DNA of 64,000 nt, from contig NZ_CP114598.1 in NCBI RefSeq assembly GCF_030848305.1, positions 558,001-622,000 of the forward strand. The letters are read 5' to 3'. The stretch's first letter is position 1. Each line of letters begins with the position of its first letter. Under the pieces are notes generated by a model that was not told the origin of the DNA, searched no databases, and worked only from the letters and a program-made list of their open reading frames with translations. Positions 15,706 through 30,448 of this stretch are shown in pieces. The stretch comes from Akkermansia muciniphila. GTDB taxonomy: Bacteria > Verrucomicrobiota > Verrucomicrobiia > Verrucomicrobiales > Akkermansiaceae. The translations under genes were made by a program, and so were the position numbers.

Positions 15706-18360
15706 ATGATGCAAACCTTCTCCAGACTCCATGTTCCCCATGCCGTTCTCACGTCCTGCGCGGCGGCCCTGCTTTCCCTGGGCGGCGCTTCCCCTGCAAC
15801 TGCCTCCCTCCCTGCGGGAGAAACCCTCCCGCAGGACAGGCAGGATCTCCTGAAAAACAAAAAATACCAGCAGGGGCTGAAAGCCCTGGAAAACCGCCTT
15901 CCCCTGGAAGCCAGCAAACATTTCCAGGAATGCCTGTCTTCCAGAAACCTGGCGGAACCACAAAAAGCCATCATCCGCCCTTTTCTGGCGGAAGCCCTGA
16001 TCCGCGCCAAAAAAACGGAAGAAGGTCTGAATGCCTGGGAGCAGCTACCGGACTCTCCCATGAAATCCTACTGGACGGCGGTGGGCCTCTTCAATAAGGG
16101 CTCCTTTACTAAAGCCCTGGAAAAACTTACCGCCATCCCGGAAACAGATCCGCTTTCCCTCTACGGGTTCCAATTGAAAGCCCGGCTTGCGCGCCAGCTT
16201 CAGGACCGGCAACTTTTATCGGAAACCCTCAGCAGGCTGGGTCAGGCGGAATCTCCCGCCGTTTCCCGCCCCGCGCGCCTTCTTCTGGCGGATGTACTGG
16301 TGAATCAGGAACGCTACCAGGACTCCGCCGCTATCCTTGAACAGCTCAAAACGGAAGCCGGGACGGACAGCAACCAGCTCATGCGTTCATACGCCGAACT
16401 CATAGAAGGAAAGCTGGCCGGCAAACAGGGGAATCTGGACCAGGCCATAAAAACCTTCGCCGCCGTTATGGACAACAAGTCCTATCCGGAAAAAATACGT
16501 GATCTGGGCCGTCTGGCTCTCGCCAAGGCGGAAATAGCCCGGGAGAAAAGCAATCCGGAGCAGGCGGAAGAGGAAACGCGTTCCCAGCTTCAGGAAGAGG
16601 AAGCTCCGCACACCGCCGGAACGGCGGAAGAACGCCTGCTGGCGTTCATTGGCGGCAAATCGGAATCCGCCCTTCTGATGGATGCCTTCAACATTCTGCT
16701 GGATGAAGACATCTTCCGCACCAATCCCCAGGCTCTGGAAAAACTCAACGGCTGGGTAAAGGCCAGGGATGTCTCCCGCCAGCCGGCGGCCATGTATGCC
16801 ATGGGAAAACTTCTTCTGGAAAAAGATGACCTGCCGGGCGCCGTCAACATGGCGGAAGAAGGGCTCTCCAAATATCCCCAGAGTCTTCCCGTTCAAATTC
16901 TTTCCCTGAATACCATTACTGTTCTGCTGGATAAAAACCGCCTGAAGGAGGCGGAACGTCTTATTTCCAAATATCCCGGTTCGTCCCCTGACCTCGTCTT
17001 TCAACAGGGCGCCCTGGCTTTCCTCAAAAAAGACTACTCCCTGGCGCAGAACCTTTTCCGGGAAGCGGCCCGCCGAGCTTCGGAAACAACGGCGGAAAAC
17101 GCCCTGTTCAATGAAAACCTGGCCGCCTTGAACGCCAATGACTCCGCCGGAGCCGCCGCGCTCATCAAGGAAGCCGCAGGCTCTTCCCGGCTCCGGGAAA
17201 ACATCCTCTTTGAACAGGCCCATTACGCCGCTAAAAGAATGGACCCTCAGGCTGCGGAATTGCTGGCAAATTTCATCGCTCTGGCGGAGAATCCGGCTCT
17301 GAAAACCCAGGCGCGGCTGGACCAGGCGGAAGTAGCCCTGAATCTCAACCCTCCGGATCTGAAAACCGTGCAGACTATCATCCCCCTGTTGGAAAAAGAG
17401 CAGTTGTCCCCGGAACAGACCATGCAGCTGGCACGGCTAAATATTCTGGAAGCGGAGAGCCGGCAGGAATGGCCCAGCGCCATCCAGGCCTGCCGGAAGG
17501 CCATTGCCCTGGATGCGGAAGGCAAACAGGCGGATATGCTTTATCTCAAACTGGGAGAACTTCTGTACAAAAACGGAGACTTCCATGAAGCGCAGCTTGT
17601 TCTCCAGCCCTTTCCCTCCAAATACCCTGACAGCCCTCTTCAGGCGGCAGCCCTCTTCCTGGCAGGAAAAGCCGCCCAGCAAAGTAATGCCGGCAGCACG
17701 CTGAACGCCGCCCTGAACATCTTCAAAACCCTGGGCGCGGAGGACACCCCCTTTGCCCAGCCTGCCAGAATAGAAGAAGCCTCCATTCTCCTGCGCATGG
17801 GAAAAGCGGATCAATGCATCTCCGCCCTGGAAAACCTGCTTTCCACCCCATTGCCGCGCTACATGCGCCTGCTGGCCCTCTCCATCCAGGCGGATGCCTG
17901 GGTGACAAAGGAAGACACCCATTCGGACACGCTGCGCAAGGCTATCAACCTCTGTACGGAAATCCTGAATACGCCCAACCTGGGACTGGCCTGGAAATTC
18001 AAGGCCCTGACCCAGCGGGCCCAGTTCTACGAACGAATGAACGAACAAAAAAAGGCGCTGGACGACTATGCCTCCATTCTGGCCCATACGCCCAGCGGAA
18101 GTTCCTCCAACAAACGCAGGGACTGGCACTGGTTCTACAATGCCGGTTTTGCCTCCATCCGCCTGCTGGGCCAGCTTCAGGACTGGGACGGAGCCCTGGC
18201 GCTGGCAAAAAAACTGGCGCAGACTTCCGGCCCCAGAGCCAGGGAAGCAGCGGCCTATGCGCGCCGCATCCAGCTGGAACACTTCATCTGGCAGGATGAA
18301 CAGGAAGCTCCCGCTCTGGAAAACGAAAAGCCGGCGGCACCGGATCAAACCGCAGATTAA
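15706..18360 (+). CDS. Large secreted TPR-repeat protein
   Basis: Protein of 884 residues built almost wholly from tetratricopeptide-like helical pairs, with repeated A/L/E-rich patterns and turns such as YPxSxP (SKYPQSLPVQI, SKYPDSPLQAA). An N-terminal hydrophobic segment (LTSCAAALLSLGGASPATA) looks like a signal peptide, so it is likely periplasmic, acting as a scaffold. It starts seven bases after the M23 gene. No enzymatic motif is visible. Confidence 0.85.
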   Translation: MMQTFSRLHVPHAVLTSCAAALLSLGGASPATASLPAGETLPQDRQDLLKNKKYQQGLKALENRLPLEASKHFQECLSSRNLAEPQKAIIRPFLAEALIRAKKTEEGLNAWEQLPDSPMKSYWTAVGLFNKGSFTKALEKLTAIPETDPLSLYGFQLKARLARQLQDRQLLSETLSRLGQAESPAVSRPARLLLADVLVNQERYQDSAAILEQLKTEAGTDSNQLMRSYAELIEGKLAGKQGNLDQAIKTFAAVMDNKSYPEKIRDLGRLALAKAEIAREKSNPEQAEEETRSQLQEEEAPHTAGTAEERLLAFIGGKSESALLMDAFNILLDEDIFRTNPQALEKLNGWVKARDVSRQPAAMYAMGKLLLEKDDLPGAVNMAEEGLSKYPQSLPVQILSLNTITVLLDKNRLKEAERLISKYPGSSPDLVFQQGALAFLKKDYSLAQNLFREAARRASETTAENALFNENLAALNANDSAGAAALIKEAAGSSRLRENILFEQAHYAAKRMDPQAAELLANFIALAENPALKTQARLDQAEVALNLNPPDLKTVQTIIPLLEKEQLSPEQTMQLARLNILEAESRQEWPSAIQACRKAIALDAEGKQADMLYLKLGELLYKNGDFHEAQLVLQPFPSKYPDSPLQAAALFLAGKAAQQSNAGSTLNAALNIFKTLGAEDTPFAQPARIEEASILLRMGKADQCISALENLLSTPLPRYMRLLALSIQADAWVTKEDTHSDTLRKAINLCTEILNTPNLGLAWKFKALTQRAQFYERMNEQKKALDDYASILAHTPSGSSSNKRRDWHWFYNAGFASIRLLGQLQDWDGALALAKKLAQTSGPRAREAAAYARRIQLEHFIWQDEQEAPALENEKPAAPDQTAD

Positions 18361-18378: not shown

Positions 18379-19722
18379 ATGGATACCCATCCCACAGCAA
18401 AAAACTGGAGACTCAATGCAGCGGCCATCATTATGGACGCTGAAGGCTGCGTATTGCTGGGCAAGGACAGCGGCCGCAACCCGTACTGGCATTTCCCGCA
18501 GGGAGGCGTCATTAAAGGCGAAAGCATTGAACGGACTCTTGCGCGGGAAGTATGGGAGGAAGTGGGGCTGCGCCCCACGGAATACACCATTGTCAACCGT
18601 CTGCCCGGCCTGCGCTACAAATACCCTTCCGGCAACCGTAAAGTTACGCGCTGGATAGGCCAGGAACAAACCTACTTCCTTGTGCGCTGCAAAACCAGAC
18701 GCCCTAAAACGGACTTGCACCGCAGCCCCGAATTTTCAAAAACGAAATGGATTCCCCTCCAAGATCTCAAACTGGAAATGTTTCCCAAATTCAAAAGGAA
18801 AGTCATTAAAAACGCCCTTCAGCAATTCTTCGGGCCCGGCTTTCCTTCCAAACATGCCGCCGTGAAAACATCTTCACCCTCCTCACCCTCATCTTCAACA
18901 CTAACTCCGCGTACAATGAACCGTTACCTGGTGCCTCCCGGCAAAAAACTGCGTTTAAAGGATTATTCTCCGGACGATAAATCTCTCTTCTCCGGAACCA
19001 AGGAAGAATCCCTGATTGAATTCGACAAACTGAGGGAAGAACTGCAGGAACTGCAGAAAAAACTTTTTGCCCAGCACAAGCACAAAATTCTGGTCATTCT
19101 TCAGGCCATGGACGCAGGGGGCAAGGACGGCTGCGTCAAGCATGTCTTTTCCCGGGTGGATCCGCAGGGGCTGCACGTAGTCCCCTTCAAAAAACCTACT
19201 ACTGAGGAACTGGACCACGATTTCCTGTGGCGCGTACACAAGGAAGTGCCCGCCAAAGGGCAAATCGCCATCTTCAACCGTTCCCATTATGAAGATATCA
19301 TTGCCGTCCGCGTGAAAAAAATCTTCCCGGATCCGGTCTGGAAACGCCGCTACAAGCACGTCCTCGATTTTGAATCCATGCTTGCGGAAGAAGGCACCGT
19401 CATCATCAAGCTATTCCTGAATATCTCCAAGGCGGAACAGAAAAAACGGCTGGAATCCAGGCTTCAGGATCCGGACAAACTTTGGAAATTCTGCATGGAT
19501 GACCTGGATGACCGGAATCGTTGGGACGAATTCCAGACAGCTTACCAGGATCTCATTGAAAAAACATCTACTCCGGAAGCGCCCTGGTACATTATCCCGG
19601 CAGACCGGAAATGGTATAGAAACCTGGTTGTCGCCCGCCTGATGGTAGAAAAACTGCGCCATCTCCAGCTTTCGCTCCCCACTCCCAACTTTGATCCTGC
19701 CTCCATCGTCATTCCAGATTGA
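18379..19722 (+). CDS. Nudix hydrolase-polyphosphate kinase 2 fusion
   Basis: Two enzymes in one 447-residue chain. Residues 1-155 are an RppH/ApnA-type Nudix hydrolase with a perfect box GX5EX7REUXEEXGU at 42-64. A Ser/Pro/Thr-rich linker (about 160-180) leads to a PPK2 domain (about 181-447) with Walker A DAGGKDG at 245-251, FNRSHYEDI and the C-terminal block WYIIPADRKWYRNL. PPK2 moves phosphate between polyphosphate and nucleotides; the Nudix part would hydrolyse capped RNA ends or dinucleoside polyphosphates. An internal ATG at 18916 starts the PPK2 half but has no ribosome binding site. The frame is continuous across the junction. Confidence 0.88.
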   Translation: MDTHPTAKNWRLNAAAIIMDAEGCVLLGKDSGRNPYWHFPQGGVIKGESIERTLAREVWEEVGLRPTEYTIVNRLPGLRYKYPSGNRKVTRWIGQEQTYFLVRCKTRRPKTDLHRSPEFSKTKWIPLQDLKLEMFPKFKRKVIKNALQQFFGPGFPSKHAAVKTSSPSSPSSSTLTPRTMNRYLVPPGKKLRLKDYSPDDKSLFSGTKEESLIEFDKLREELQELQKKLFAQHKHKILVILQAMDAGGKDGCVKHVFSRVDPQGLHVVPFKKPTTEELDHDFLWRVHKEVPAKGQIAIFNRSHYEDIIAVRVKKIFPDPVWKRRYKHVLDFESMLAEEGTVIIKLFLNISKAEQKKRLESRLQDPDKLWKFCMDDLDDRNRWDEFQTAYQDLIEKTSTPEAPWYIIPADRKWYRNLVVARLMVEKLRHLQLSLPTPNFDPASIVIPD

Positions 19723-19936: not shown

Positions 19937-20686
19937 ATGTATTTAGCATCCCAACGAAAGGAGTTCATTCTGAAAACGCTGGCCGAACATGGAGCTGCAA
20001 GGACCATCGCTCTGGCCAAACAGATGAAGGTCACGGATGAAACGGTCCGCAATGATTTGATTAACCTTGAAAAACGCGGCTTCCTCAAGCGCGTCCACGG
20101 CGGTGCTCTGGCGCTTACTCACAAATCCCTTCATGAAGACATTGTCACTCAAGACGATGTGTCTATCAGGATTGCCAAAAAAACTGTTCAGAATATTCCC
20201 GCTTCCGTGGTTATGTTCATTGACAGCAGCACCATGGGCTATCAAATATGCAACCACATCAATTCCAAGGATACGCACGTGGTTTCCAACAACCCCACGT
20301 TGCTGACCCGGCTTGAAGGCATTCCGAACCTGAGCTTCTATTGCACGGGCGGACACTTTGACCGCGAAGCCCTGGTCTATGTAGGACAGGACGCCGCCAA
20401 GGCCGCCGGCTCCCTGAGCATTGACATGGTTGTGCTGACGCCGGACTGCTACTCCCCCAAGCATGGCGCCGGATACAAGAACATGCTGCAATCCGAATTC
20501 ATCAAGAGCGTCATCCCCGCGGATGCCAAGGTGATCATCGCCATGCCTTCCACCAGCGTGGCTAACAACCCGGCATTCTATACCGTTGCGCCCTCCCAGG
20601 TTTCCATGCTCATCACTGATGAGGCCCTTTCTCCGGAAATGGCCGACCAGATTGAAAAGAGCGGCGTCAAGGTGGAACTCGCCTGA
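19937..20686 (+). CDS. DeoR/GlpR-family transcriptional regulator
   Basis: DNA-binding repressor of 249 residues. The N-terminal winged helix spans about 5-58 (RKEFILKTLAEHGA, VTDETVRNDLINLEKRGFL, RVHGGAL) and the sugar-phosphate-sensing domain covers about 75-245. DeoR proteins usually respond to a phosphorylated sugar. No sugar catabolic gene is adjacent, so the target is unknown apart from possible autoregulation. It is a single-gene unit with its own promoter and terminator. Confidence 0.92.
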   Translation: MYLASQRKEFILKTLAEHGAARTIALAKQMKVTDETVRNDLINLEKRGFLKRVHGGALALTHKSLHEDIVTQDDVSIRIAKKTVQNIPASVVMFIDSSTMGYQICNHINSKDTHVVSNNPTLLTRLEGIPNLSFYCTGGHFDREALVYVGQDAAKAAGSLSIDMVVLTPDCYSPKHGAGYKNMLQSEFIKSVIPADAKVIIAMPSTSVANNPAFYTVAPSQVSMLITDEALSPEMADQIEKSGVKVELA

Positions 20687-28840: not shown

Positions 28841-29767
28841 CTAATCCCCGCCCCCGGACAGGGGGCGTTCCAGTTCCTCCCGGAATTTGGGAAAGAACGC
28901 TTTCAATTCCCCGGAAACCTTCGGGTATTCCAGCCTCATTTCCGCCAGGGCCTCCACAATGGCGCACAAGCAGACGAGCCGGGAATACCACTTGTTGTCC
29001 GCCGGCACCACATACCATGGAGCCTCCCGGGAAGAAGTATGGCGTATCATCTCCTCATACGCTTTCTGGTACTGGCCCCAGAATTCGCGTTCGTGGATAT
29101 CTCCTTCTGAAAACTTCCAGTTCTTGTCCGGAGTATCCAGCCGCGCCAGAAGGCGCTTTCTCTGTTCCTCCGGGGAAAGATTGAGGAATATTTTCACAAT
29201 GCTCGTCTTGTTGGCGAGCAGGTGGCGTTCCAGATTATTAATGGACCTGAACCTCTCCTCCCAGAAAGCACTTTTGGCATGGGCGGGATTAAATCCCTCT
29301 CCGGCCAGAAACTCCGGATGCACGCGCACGCTAAGAACTTCTTCATAATAGGAGCGGTTGAAAATGCCAATCATTCCCCGCCTGGGGAGACGGGATACAC
29401 ACCGCCACAGGAAATCATGGCTCCGCTCCAGCGTGGAAGGCTGCTTGAAGCTGCTGACTACGCACCCCTGCGGATTGACGCCTCCCATCACATGCTTCAC
29501 AATGCCATCTTTCCCCGCGCTGTCCATCGCCTGCAACACCACCAGCAGAGCATAAGACTCGCTGGCATACAATACTTCCTGAAGCTGTGCCAGCAATTCG
29601 ATGCCCTTTTCCAGCTTATCCACGGCCTCTTTCTTGCTGTCTTTGCCCAGTTTGCCGAGATCGCCCGGGTCATAGCGGGACAACTTGAATCCCCTGCCGT
29701 CCGTCACCCGGTACGGTTCAATAAATTTCCTGCATCTTTTGACCAGGCGGGAAGAAATATCCATCAT
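28841..29767 (-). CDS. Polyphosphate kinase 2 family protein
   Basis: Second PPK2 in the window, 308 residues, without a Nudix partner. The Walker A block is LQAMDSAGKDG, followed by FNRSYYEEVL, FLNLSPEEQRKRL and the C-terminal WYVVPADNKWYSRL. These match the PPK2 half of the fusion at 18.4 kb, though with clear divergence. I start at the first ATG of ATGATGG (29767), preceded by CAGGA; the frame is open to 29821. Whether it favours AMP, ADP or GDP cannot be read. Confidence 0.9.
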   Translation of the reverse strand: MMDISSRLVKRCRKFIEPYRVTDGRGFKLSRYDPGDLGKLGKDSKKEAVDKLEKGIELLAQLQEVLYASESYALLVVLQAMDSAGKDGIVKHVMGGVNPQGCVVSSFKQPSTLERSHDFLWRCVSRLPRRGMIGIFNRSYYEEVLSVRVHPEFLAGEGFNPAHAKSAFWEERFRSINNLERHLLANKTSIVKIFLNLSPEEQRKRLLARLDTPDKNWKFSEGDIHEREFWGQYQKAYEEMIRHTSSREAPWYVVPADNKWYSRLVCLCAIVEALAEMRLEYPKVSGELKAFFPKFREELERPLSGGGD

Positions 29768-30448
29768 TCCTGTAATGACACCGTCCCTTCTCAAAATGTT
29801 GAAACAACAGTAAAACATCAATGCTTCTCTGTTTGAAGGATTCCACCCCGGCGATAGACGACACTTCCCGGCATAAATCAGGAACGTTCATCCTTGCCGG
29901 CCCCATTGCATAAAAGCAGAAGTTAACATCACTGCCCTGCAATAAGATCCAGCCGTGCAGTAAAAACGGCGCAATCAAAAAACAACCAGCGTCTTTGGCC
30001 CCCTCCTGAAAAAACAGGATGATAAAAATATCCAGAATATATTAAATAACTTTATCCAGCAGCCTTCCGTTCCCTGCTGCATGACGCACGATGCATTATA
30101 ACTTCATCAATCCAAAAACTTTGATTATTCAGGGAAACAAAAAGAACAAAAAAGTAAAATCCGCCATGTTTGACGCCTTCGTCATTGCCTTTCCCCGCTC
30201 TTTCTTGTTCCCGGCACATAGTGCAGGTCAATATGGCGGGACTGCATCTCCGGCTCCTGTTTTTTACAGGAAAACAATCACAATTCTATTGAATATCAAT
30301 GAACAGATATTCAAATAGATTTATTTCTCTTCTTATCTCTGCAACTTTGAAAAGCTCTGAATGCTTTTATCCCGGAAAATATATTGCCGCCGGATATGTA
30401 ATCCGCGGGAAAATGTAATTTCTATGAATATTGCTTAAAATAAAAAAC
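29768..30448. other. AT-rich intergenic stretch, no gene seen
   Basis: Nearly 700 bases between the 5' side of ppk2 and the 3' end of the GH110 gene. It is visibly richer in A and T than its neighbours. Two related small hairpins occur, CCTGAAAAAACAGG near 30010 and CCTGTTTTTTACAGG near 30260. A 75-codon open frame at 30091-30318 shows no domain and is probably chance. Confidence 0.5.

Follow-up and report, generated by a model that had tools for sequence, protein, structure and literature searches.

A Nudix hydrolase fused to a class III PPK2 in Akkermansia, with kinase-motif loss in a sub-clade of 28 species

Class III PPK2s carry out the polyphosphate (polyP)-driven phosphorylation of AMP and ADP, to ATP, and they are recognized by a signature glutamate after Walker B, which is E137 in the Cytophaga hutchinsonii enzyme, ChPPK2 (PMC8776046). 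PPK2s form oligomers, and Ap4 and Ap5 arise as by-products of their activity (PMC8776046). Alteration of K86, K258, and R262 in ChPPK2 lowered PPK2 activity, and the counterparts of these residues in FtPPK2 affect polyP binding (PMC8776046). RppH-type Nudix enzymes split Ap4A into AMP and ATP (PMC7705103), and RNA 5' ends are also substrates of these enzymes (PMC7705103; PMC5389931). No description of a protein joining a Nudix domain to a PPK2 was found in the open-access literature searched. Here we describe such a fusion in Akkermansia muciniphila, which would give this widely studied gut bacterium a single chain combining an Ap4A- or RNA-cap-type hydrolase with an AMP kinase driven by polyP.

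The fusion gene and its surroundings

The window analyzed, a stretch of 64,000 nucleotides, comes from a 2.65 Mb genome assembled as a single contig, and its region has a 100% match in an A. muciniphila record (L016). The fusion gene and its parts are as follows.

18379..19722, + strand: Nudix-PPK2 fusion gene, 447 aa, a single open reading frame (ORF) with an ATG start and Pfam matches to NUDIX and PPK2
18403..18831, + strand: Nudix hydrolase domain of the RppH/NudH type, residues ~9-151 (Pfam; resemblance to PRK00714; E. coli RppH structures)
18502..18570, + strand: Nudix box GGVIKGESIERTLAREVWEEVGL, residues 42-64 (G42-L64), fitting GX5EX7REUXEEXGU
18832..18921, + strand: linker of ~30 aa rich in Ser, Pro, and Thr, residues 152-181, containing the internal Met180 (18916-18918)
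18922..19719, + strand: class III PPK2 domain, residues 182-447 (TIGR03709 above its cut-off; Meiothermus ruber PPK2 5LC9)
19111..19131, + strand: PPK2 Walker A motif DAGGKDG (D245, K249), intact in 17 fused genomes, the window's among them
19273..19296, + strand: PPK2 FNRSHYED, the Walker B region with E305 (alignment and numbering check against ChPPK2)

The ORF runs without an internal stop over all 447 aa. The original prediction, made from the letters alone, was that one open frame holds two complete domains joined by a Ser/Pro-rich linker, and the domain search it proposed bore this out in that NUDIX and PPK2 were both matched in the one ORF. The NUDIX profile (PF00293) matched residues 11-145 with an E-value of 1.5e-20 and a score of 74 bits (cut-off 21.1), and the fold profile together with the complete GX5EX7REUXEEXGU box places the N-terminal half among the Nudix hydrolases. 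The nearest solved structure to this half is that of E. coli RppH (E ~1e-14), and the domain falls in the same sequence subfamily as RppH/NudH/IalA, with its best equivalog match, PRK00714, reaching 87 bits against an RppH cut-off of 118 (NCBIfam). Judged from these matches, the Nudix half resembles RppH but is not classed as RppH. A bile-repressed NUDIX gene, AMUC_RS00015 (PMC7671984), is listed as gene 2 of its genome and, going by this gene order, is apparently not the fusion gene.

The C-terminal half matched PPK2 (PF03976) over residues 212-427 with an E-value of 2.6e-71 and 240 bits against a cut-off of 22.3 (Pfam), and its score to TIGR03709 (PPK2_rel_1; NCBIfam) was 363 bits, the cut-off being 247. 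Its closest solved relative is the class III M. ruber PPK2 (5LC9, E 7e-94). Along with the class III profile, this half carries the Walker A GGKDG with both D245 and K249, and E305 in FNRSHYED corresponds, by alignment-checked numbering, to the signature glutamate E137 of ChPPK2.

Of 76 Akkermansia genomes (genus as defined by GTDB), 45 carry the same unbroken fused frame, which also recurs in independent assemblies (L010-L016), and one further genome (G317) has a fused gene cut by a contig end. A sequencing error or frameshift hiding a stop is for practical purposes ruled out by these 45 genomes, several of them independent assemblies, and the frame that had been predicted is thus real. Across species, the linker varies from 14 to 40 aa, always by in-frame changes, with a pairwise dN/dS of 0.09-0.91 where measured.

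As far as can be read from sequence, the fusion gene specifies one protein. It is very improbable that two proteins are made, whether through internal initiation at the ATG at 18916 or through a cut within the linker. Met180 does sit at the point where standalone PPK2s start and is found in 16 of the 17 fusions with an intact kinase; however, it is Ile in the remaining one (G289) and absent in 28 of 28 divergent relatives, the linker is in frame in 45 of 45 fused proteins, and no SD-like site lies at the internal ATG. The last of these points had been raised from the start as the lack of a ribosome binding site before that ATG, an observation that is accurate but uninformative as an argument, since the gene's own ATG also lacks such a site and an SD-like motif is rare among the long ORFs of the window (by a crude count, 8 of 41 have an in-frame ATG behind one).

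Three neighboring genes bear on the locus.

15706..18360, + strand: TPR-repeat protein, 884 aa, upstream (Pfam TPR), with its stop 18 bp ahead of the fusion gene
19937..20686, + strand: DeoR-type regulator, 249 aa, downstream (Pfam), with synteny kept in the same group as for the TPR gene
28841..29821, - strand: second, unfused class III-like PPK2, 326 aa, with FNRSYYEE (Pfam), ~9 kb from the fusion gene

The TPR gene and the fusion gene are probably on the same transcript. Their synteny is conserved across the A. muciniphila group, and G291, G083, and G042 share it at a greater distance. The closest solved relative of the second PPK2 is C. hutchinsonii PPK2. ApaH was not found in any of 31 genus genomes, and YqeK gave only a sub-cut-off match in the window's genome, which may leave Nudix enzymes as the principal known means of removing Ap4A.

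Distribution and origin of the fusion

Among the matches listed from 289 genomes of the order and 388 of the Verrucomicrobiota, those spanning both halves came only from the genus Akkermansia; these sets hold one genome per species, many of them draft assemblies. Verrucomicrobiota was the phylum searched, and the fusion may also occur outside it. Of 404 matching plasmid records, none cover 80% of the query. In sister genera and in the order's remaining families, class III PPK2 is encoded by a gene of its own, and the copies at the loci examined are 55-68% identical.

In a tree of 86 Nudix domains, all fused domains form one clade (support 100/100), which splits into a group with intact PPK2 halves (91/45, a weak value) and a group with degenerate PPK2 halves (100/91). 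Akkermansia also retains a separate RppH-like Nudix gene. Because this gene clusters with those of the sister genera and apart from the fused clade, an origin of the fused Nudix domain as its recent copy is not supported. Fusion of neighboring ancestral genes was also considered and set aside: in 19 loci of the same order, no Nudix gene adjoins the PPK2 gene, and the two Nudix genes that lie 1–2.5 kb upstream of a PPK2 both belong to the standalone clade.

Divergent PPK2 halves in 28 species

The fused genomes divide according to the state of the kinase. In 17, the window's included, both active sites are intact. The other 28 retain an intact Nudix box, whereas their PPK2 half is without the Walker A lysine, the catalytic Asp, and the class III Glu: K249 is kept in 0/28, D245 in 1/28, N300 in 3/28, E305 in 2/28, and R361 in 2/28, and the lid is mostly deleted. 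The pairing of Walker A lysine with catalytic Asp by which a PPK2 kinase is recognized was thus not found in these 28 relatives. Of 81 near-invariant positions drawn from 38 reference PPK2s, the median position is kept in 3 of the 28 divergent proteins, as against 27 of 28 for the invariant positions of the Nudix half, and the G, E, RE, EE, and G positions of the Nudix box are retained in all 45 fused proteins. The divergent halves are nonetheless homologous to PPK2 (hhalign probability 97.4-99.9%, with Nudix controls at <1%). Their decay is graded, with G196 still scoring 115 bits to PF03976, others scoring 20-40 bits or giving no match, and the most diverged no longer matched by Pfam PPK2.

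Y183, K208, W412, Y413, and R414 are invariant in the 28 divergent halves. By alignment, ChPPK2 K86 and K258 correspond to K254 and K411, and R262 lies near R414, an arginine that is offset by one residue and whose equivalent role is assumed. An Arg stands in for K254 in 28/28, the residue at K411 is basic in 23/28, and R414 and K208 are each kept in 28/28. By this alignment, most of the putative polyP-binding basic positions outlast the catalytic ones.

For the close pairs that could be measured, dN/dS of the pseudo-PPK2 half was 0.01-0.19, and in one sub-clade it was mostly below that of the intact Nudix half; these are simple pairwise NG86 values, and several pairs were saturated and gave none. 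No stops or frameshifts occur in the 28 species. Where measurable, the pseudo-PPK2 half is under purifying selection by this estimate. Within the A. muciniphila group, the PPK2 half gave a dN/dS of 0.02-0.05, also below that of the Nudix half. These observations bear on whether the divergent half is merely a decaying remnant heading for loss, an explanation to which we give very little credence. Graded decay of the kind described above would fit it, as would the roughly 30 genus genomes without a detected fused gene, but the low dN/dS, the uninterrupted frames, and the five invariant residues are set against it. The retained features instead suggest that the pseudo-PPK2 half has been turned into a helper or sensor for the Nudix half.

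PPK1 is present in 72 of the 76 genus genomes, so polyP should still be made, and lost polyP metabolism was rejected as the cause of kinase decay. Among the matches listed, the 28 pseudo-PPK2 genomes have no PPK2 other than the fused gene, and a second PPK2 match is found in many A. muciniphila-group genomes and in 0 of these 28.

Two further observations concern particular loci. In a sub-clade comprising L081-L085, L087-L089, and L098, the GSNRKSCLRR and CCDPLLTRAFRPEWQPEEYD segments of the PPK2-derived half are nearly identical between species, and one representative has no Pfam PPK2 match; from its sequence, this half looks like a neofunctionalized domain. In addition, the gene immediately preceding the fusion gene, at 0–40 bp (139 in one), encodes an LplA-like ligase (PF21948) in 27 of the 28 pseudo-PPK2 loci, the 28th being cut by a contig end, as well as in A. 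glycaniphila-like records and G067 (records L038, L074, and L076-L101, also L015, L073, and L075).

Possible roles of the joined chain

We lean toward a reading in which the protein is a bifunctional Nudix hydrolase and class III PPK2, whose kinase was lost in a sub-clade that kept the PPK2 fold as a partner of the Nudix half. The sequences show the fusion itself, the identity of its domains, their intact motifs, the single clade, and, in the sub-clade, purifying selection and the loss of kinase motifs, while the substrates, the coupling, and the sensing are inferred. The Nudix half would cut dinucleoside polyphosphates (Ap4A to AMP and ATP), over-phosphorylated nucleotides such as p4A and p5A, and/or RNA 5' ends, and the PPK2 half would phosphorylate AMP and ADP at the expense of polyP. 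Both halves of the A. muciniphila protein are predicted to be active from their intact catalytic residues; the kinase could recharge the AMP released by the Nudix half, which could in turn remove the Ap4/Ap5 that PPK2s make as by-products. It is plausible, as originally proposed, that hydrolysis is coupled to polyP-driven phosphorylation in the window's protein. In the ancestor of the large sub-clade, kinase activity was probably lost, and the PPK2 fold with its basic polyP-binding positions may have been kept as a scaffold or as a polyP/phosphate sensor for the Nudix half.

Since 28 species keep the fusion although its kinase is apparently dead, substrate hand-off cannot be the only reason for joining, and the PPK2 half would also have a structural or sensing role for the Nudix half, on which it probably has a direct effect as well. 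The 3D model (mean pLDDT 60, from an 8-sequence alignment) is too weak to show the domain interface. Given the separate RppH-like Nudix gene and the second PPK2 in the same genome, neither activity depends on the fusion protein.

The two halves could alternatively be independent enzymes that share a chain, with the fusion setting co-expression or a higher oligomeric state without coupling. Such an arrangement would agree with a linker that is variable in length and sequence (and relaxed in dN/dS), with the known oligomers of PPK2s (PMC8776046), and with the separate genes of the sister genera. We nevertheless consider it unlikely, as a dead PPK2 half that 28 species have kept in the fusion under purifying selection needs a non-catalytic role. 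Conversely, the PPK2 half might be mainly regulatory throughout, such that its sensing of polyP or nucleotides controls an RppH-like pyrophosphohydrolase of RNA 5' ends and kinase activity is secondary even in A. muciniphila. The RppH-like character of the Nudix half, the persistence of polyP-binding basic positions beyond catalytic ones, and the retention of PPK1 all point in this direction; yet the A. muciniphila group has a full set of kinase residues, the dN/dS of its PPK2 half is low, as for a working kinase, and a separate RppH-like gene exists, which makes a mainly regulatory PPK2 half quite improbable in our judgment.

A bolder version of the bifunctional reading that we lean toward holds that the domains were joined once in the Akkermansia ancestor and that, in the 28-species sub-clade, the PPK2 half became a non-catalytic polyP/phosphate sensor controlling the hydrolysis of dinucleotides or RNA 5' ends by the Nudix half. 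We regard this version as tentative and rather doubtful; if it is true, polyP level would be linked to RNA decay or to alarmone level. Nature provides, between the intact kinase and the pseudokinase, a series of proteins suited to studying direct control by polyP of a nucleotide or RNA-end hydrolase.

Compared with E. coli RppH (PDB 4S2V) of the RppH/NudH/IalA family, the Akkermansia Nudix half shares the Nudix box, the FPQGG and GQ(x)Q motifs, and a similar length. It differs in being fused to a PPK2 and in falling below every RppH equivalog cut-off, and the standalone RppH-like genes found in Akkermansia and its sister genera fall outside its clade. With the class III PPK2s of M. ruber (5LC9), Deinococcus (6AQE), and Cytophaga (6AN9), the other half shares GGKDG, FNRSHYE with its Glu, and the lid Lys/Arg; in contrast with these enzymes, the Akkermansia protein has an N-terminal Nudix domain, and 28 of its relatives lack the catalytic residues. 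Pseudomonas aeruginosa PPK2C (PA3455), which consists of two fused PPK2 domains of which the N-terminal one is inactive (PMC8776046), provides a precedent for an inactive PPK2 domain retained within a working enzyme, although the partner domain in PPK2C is a second PPK2, whereas in Akkermansia it is a Nudix hydrolase.
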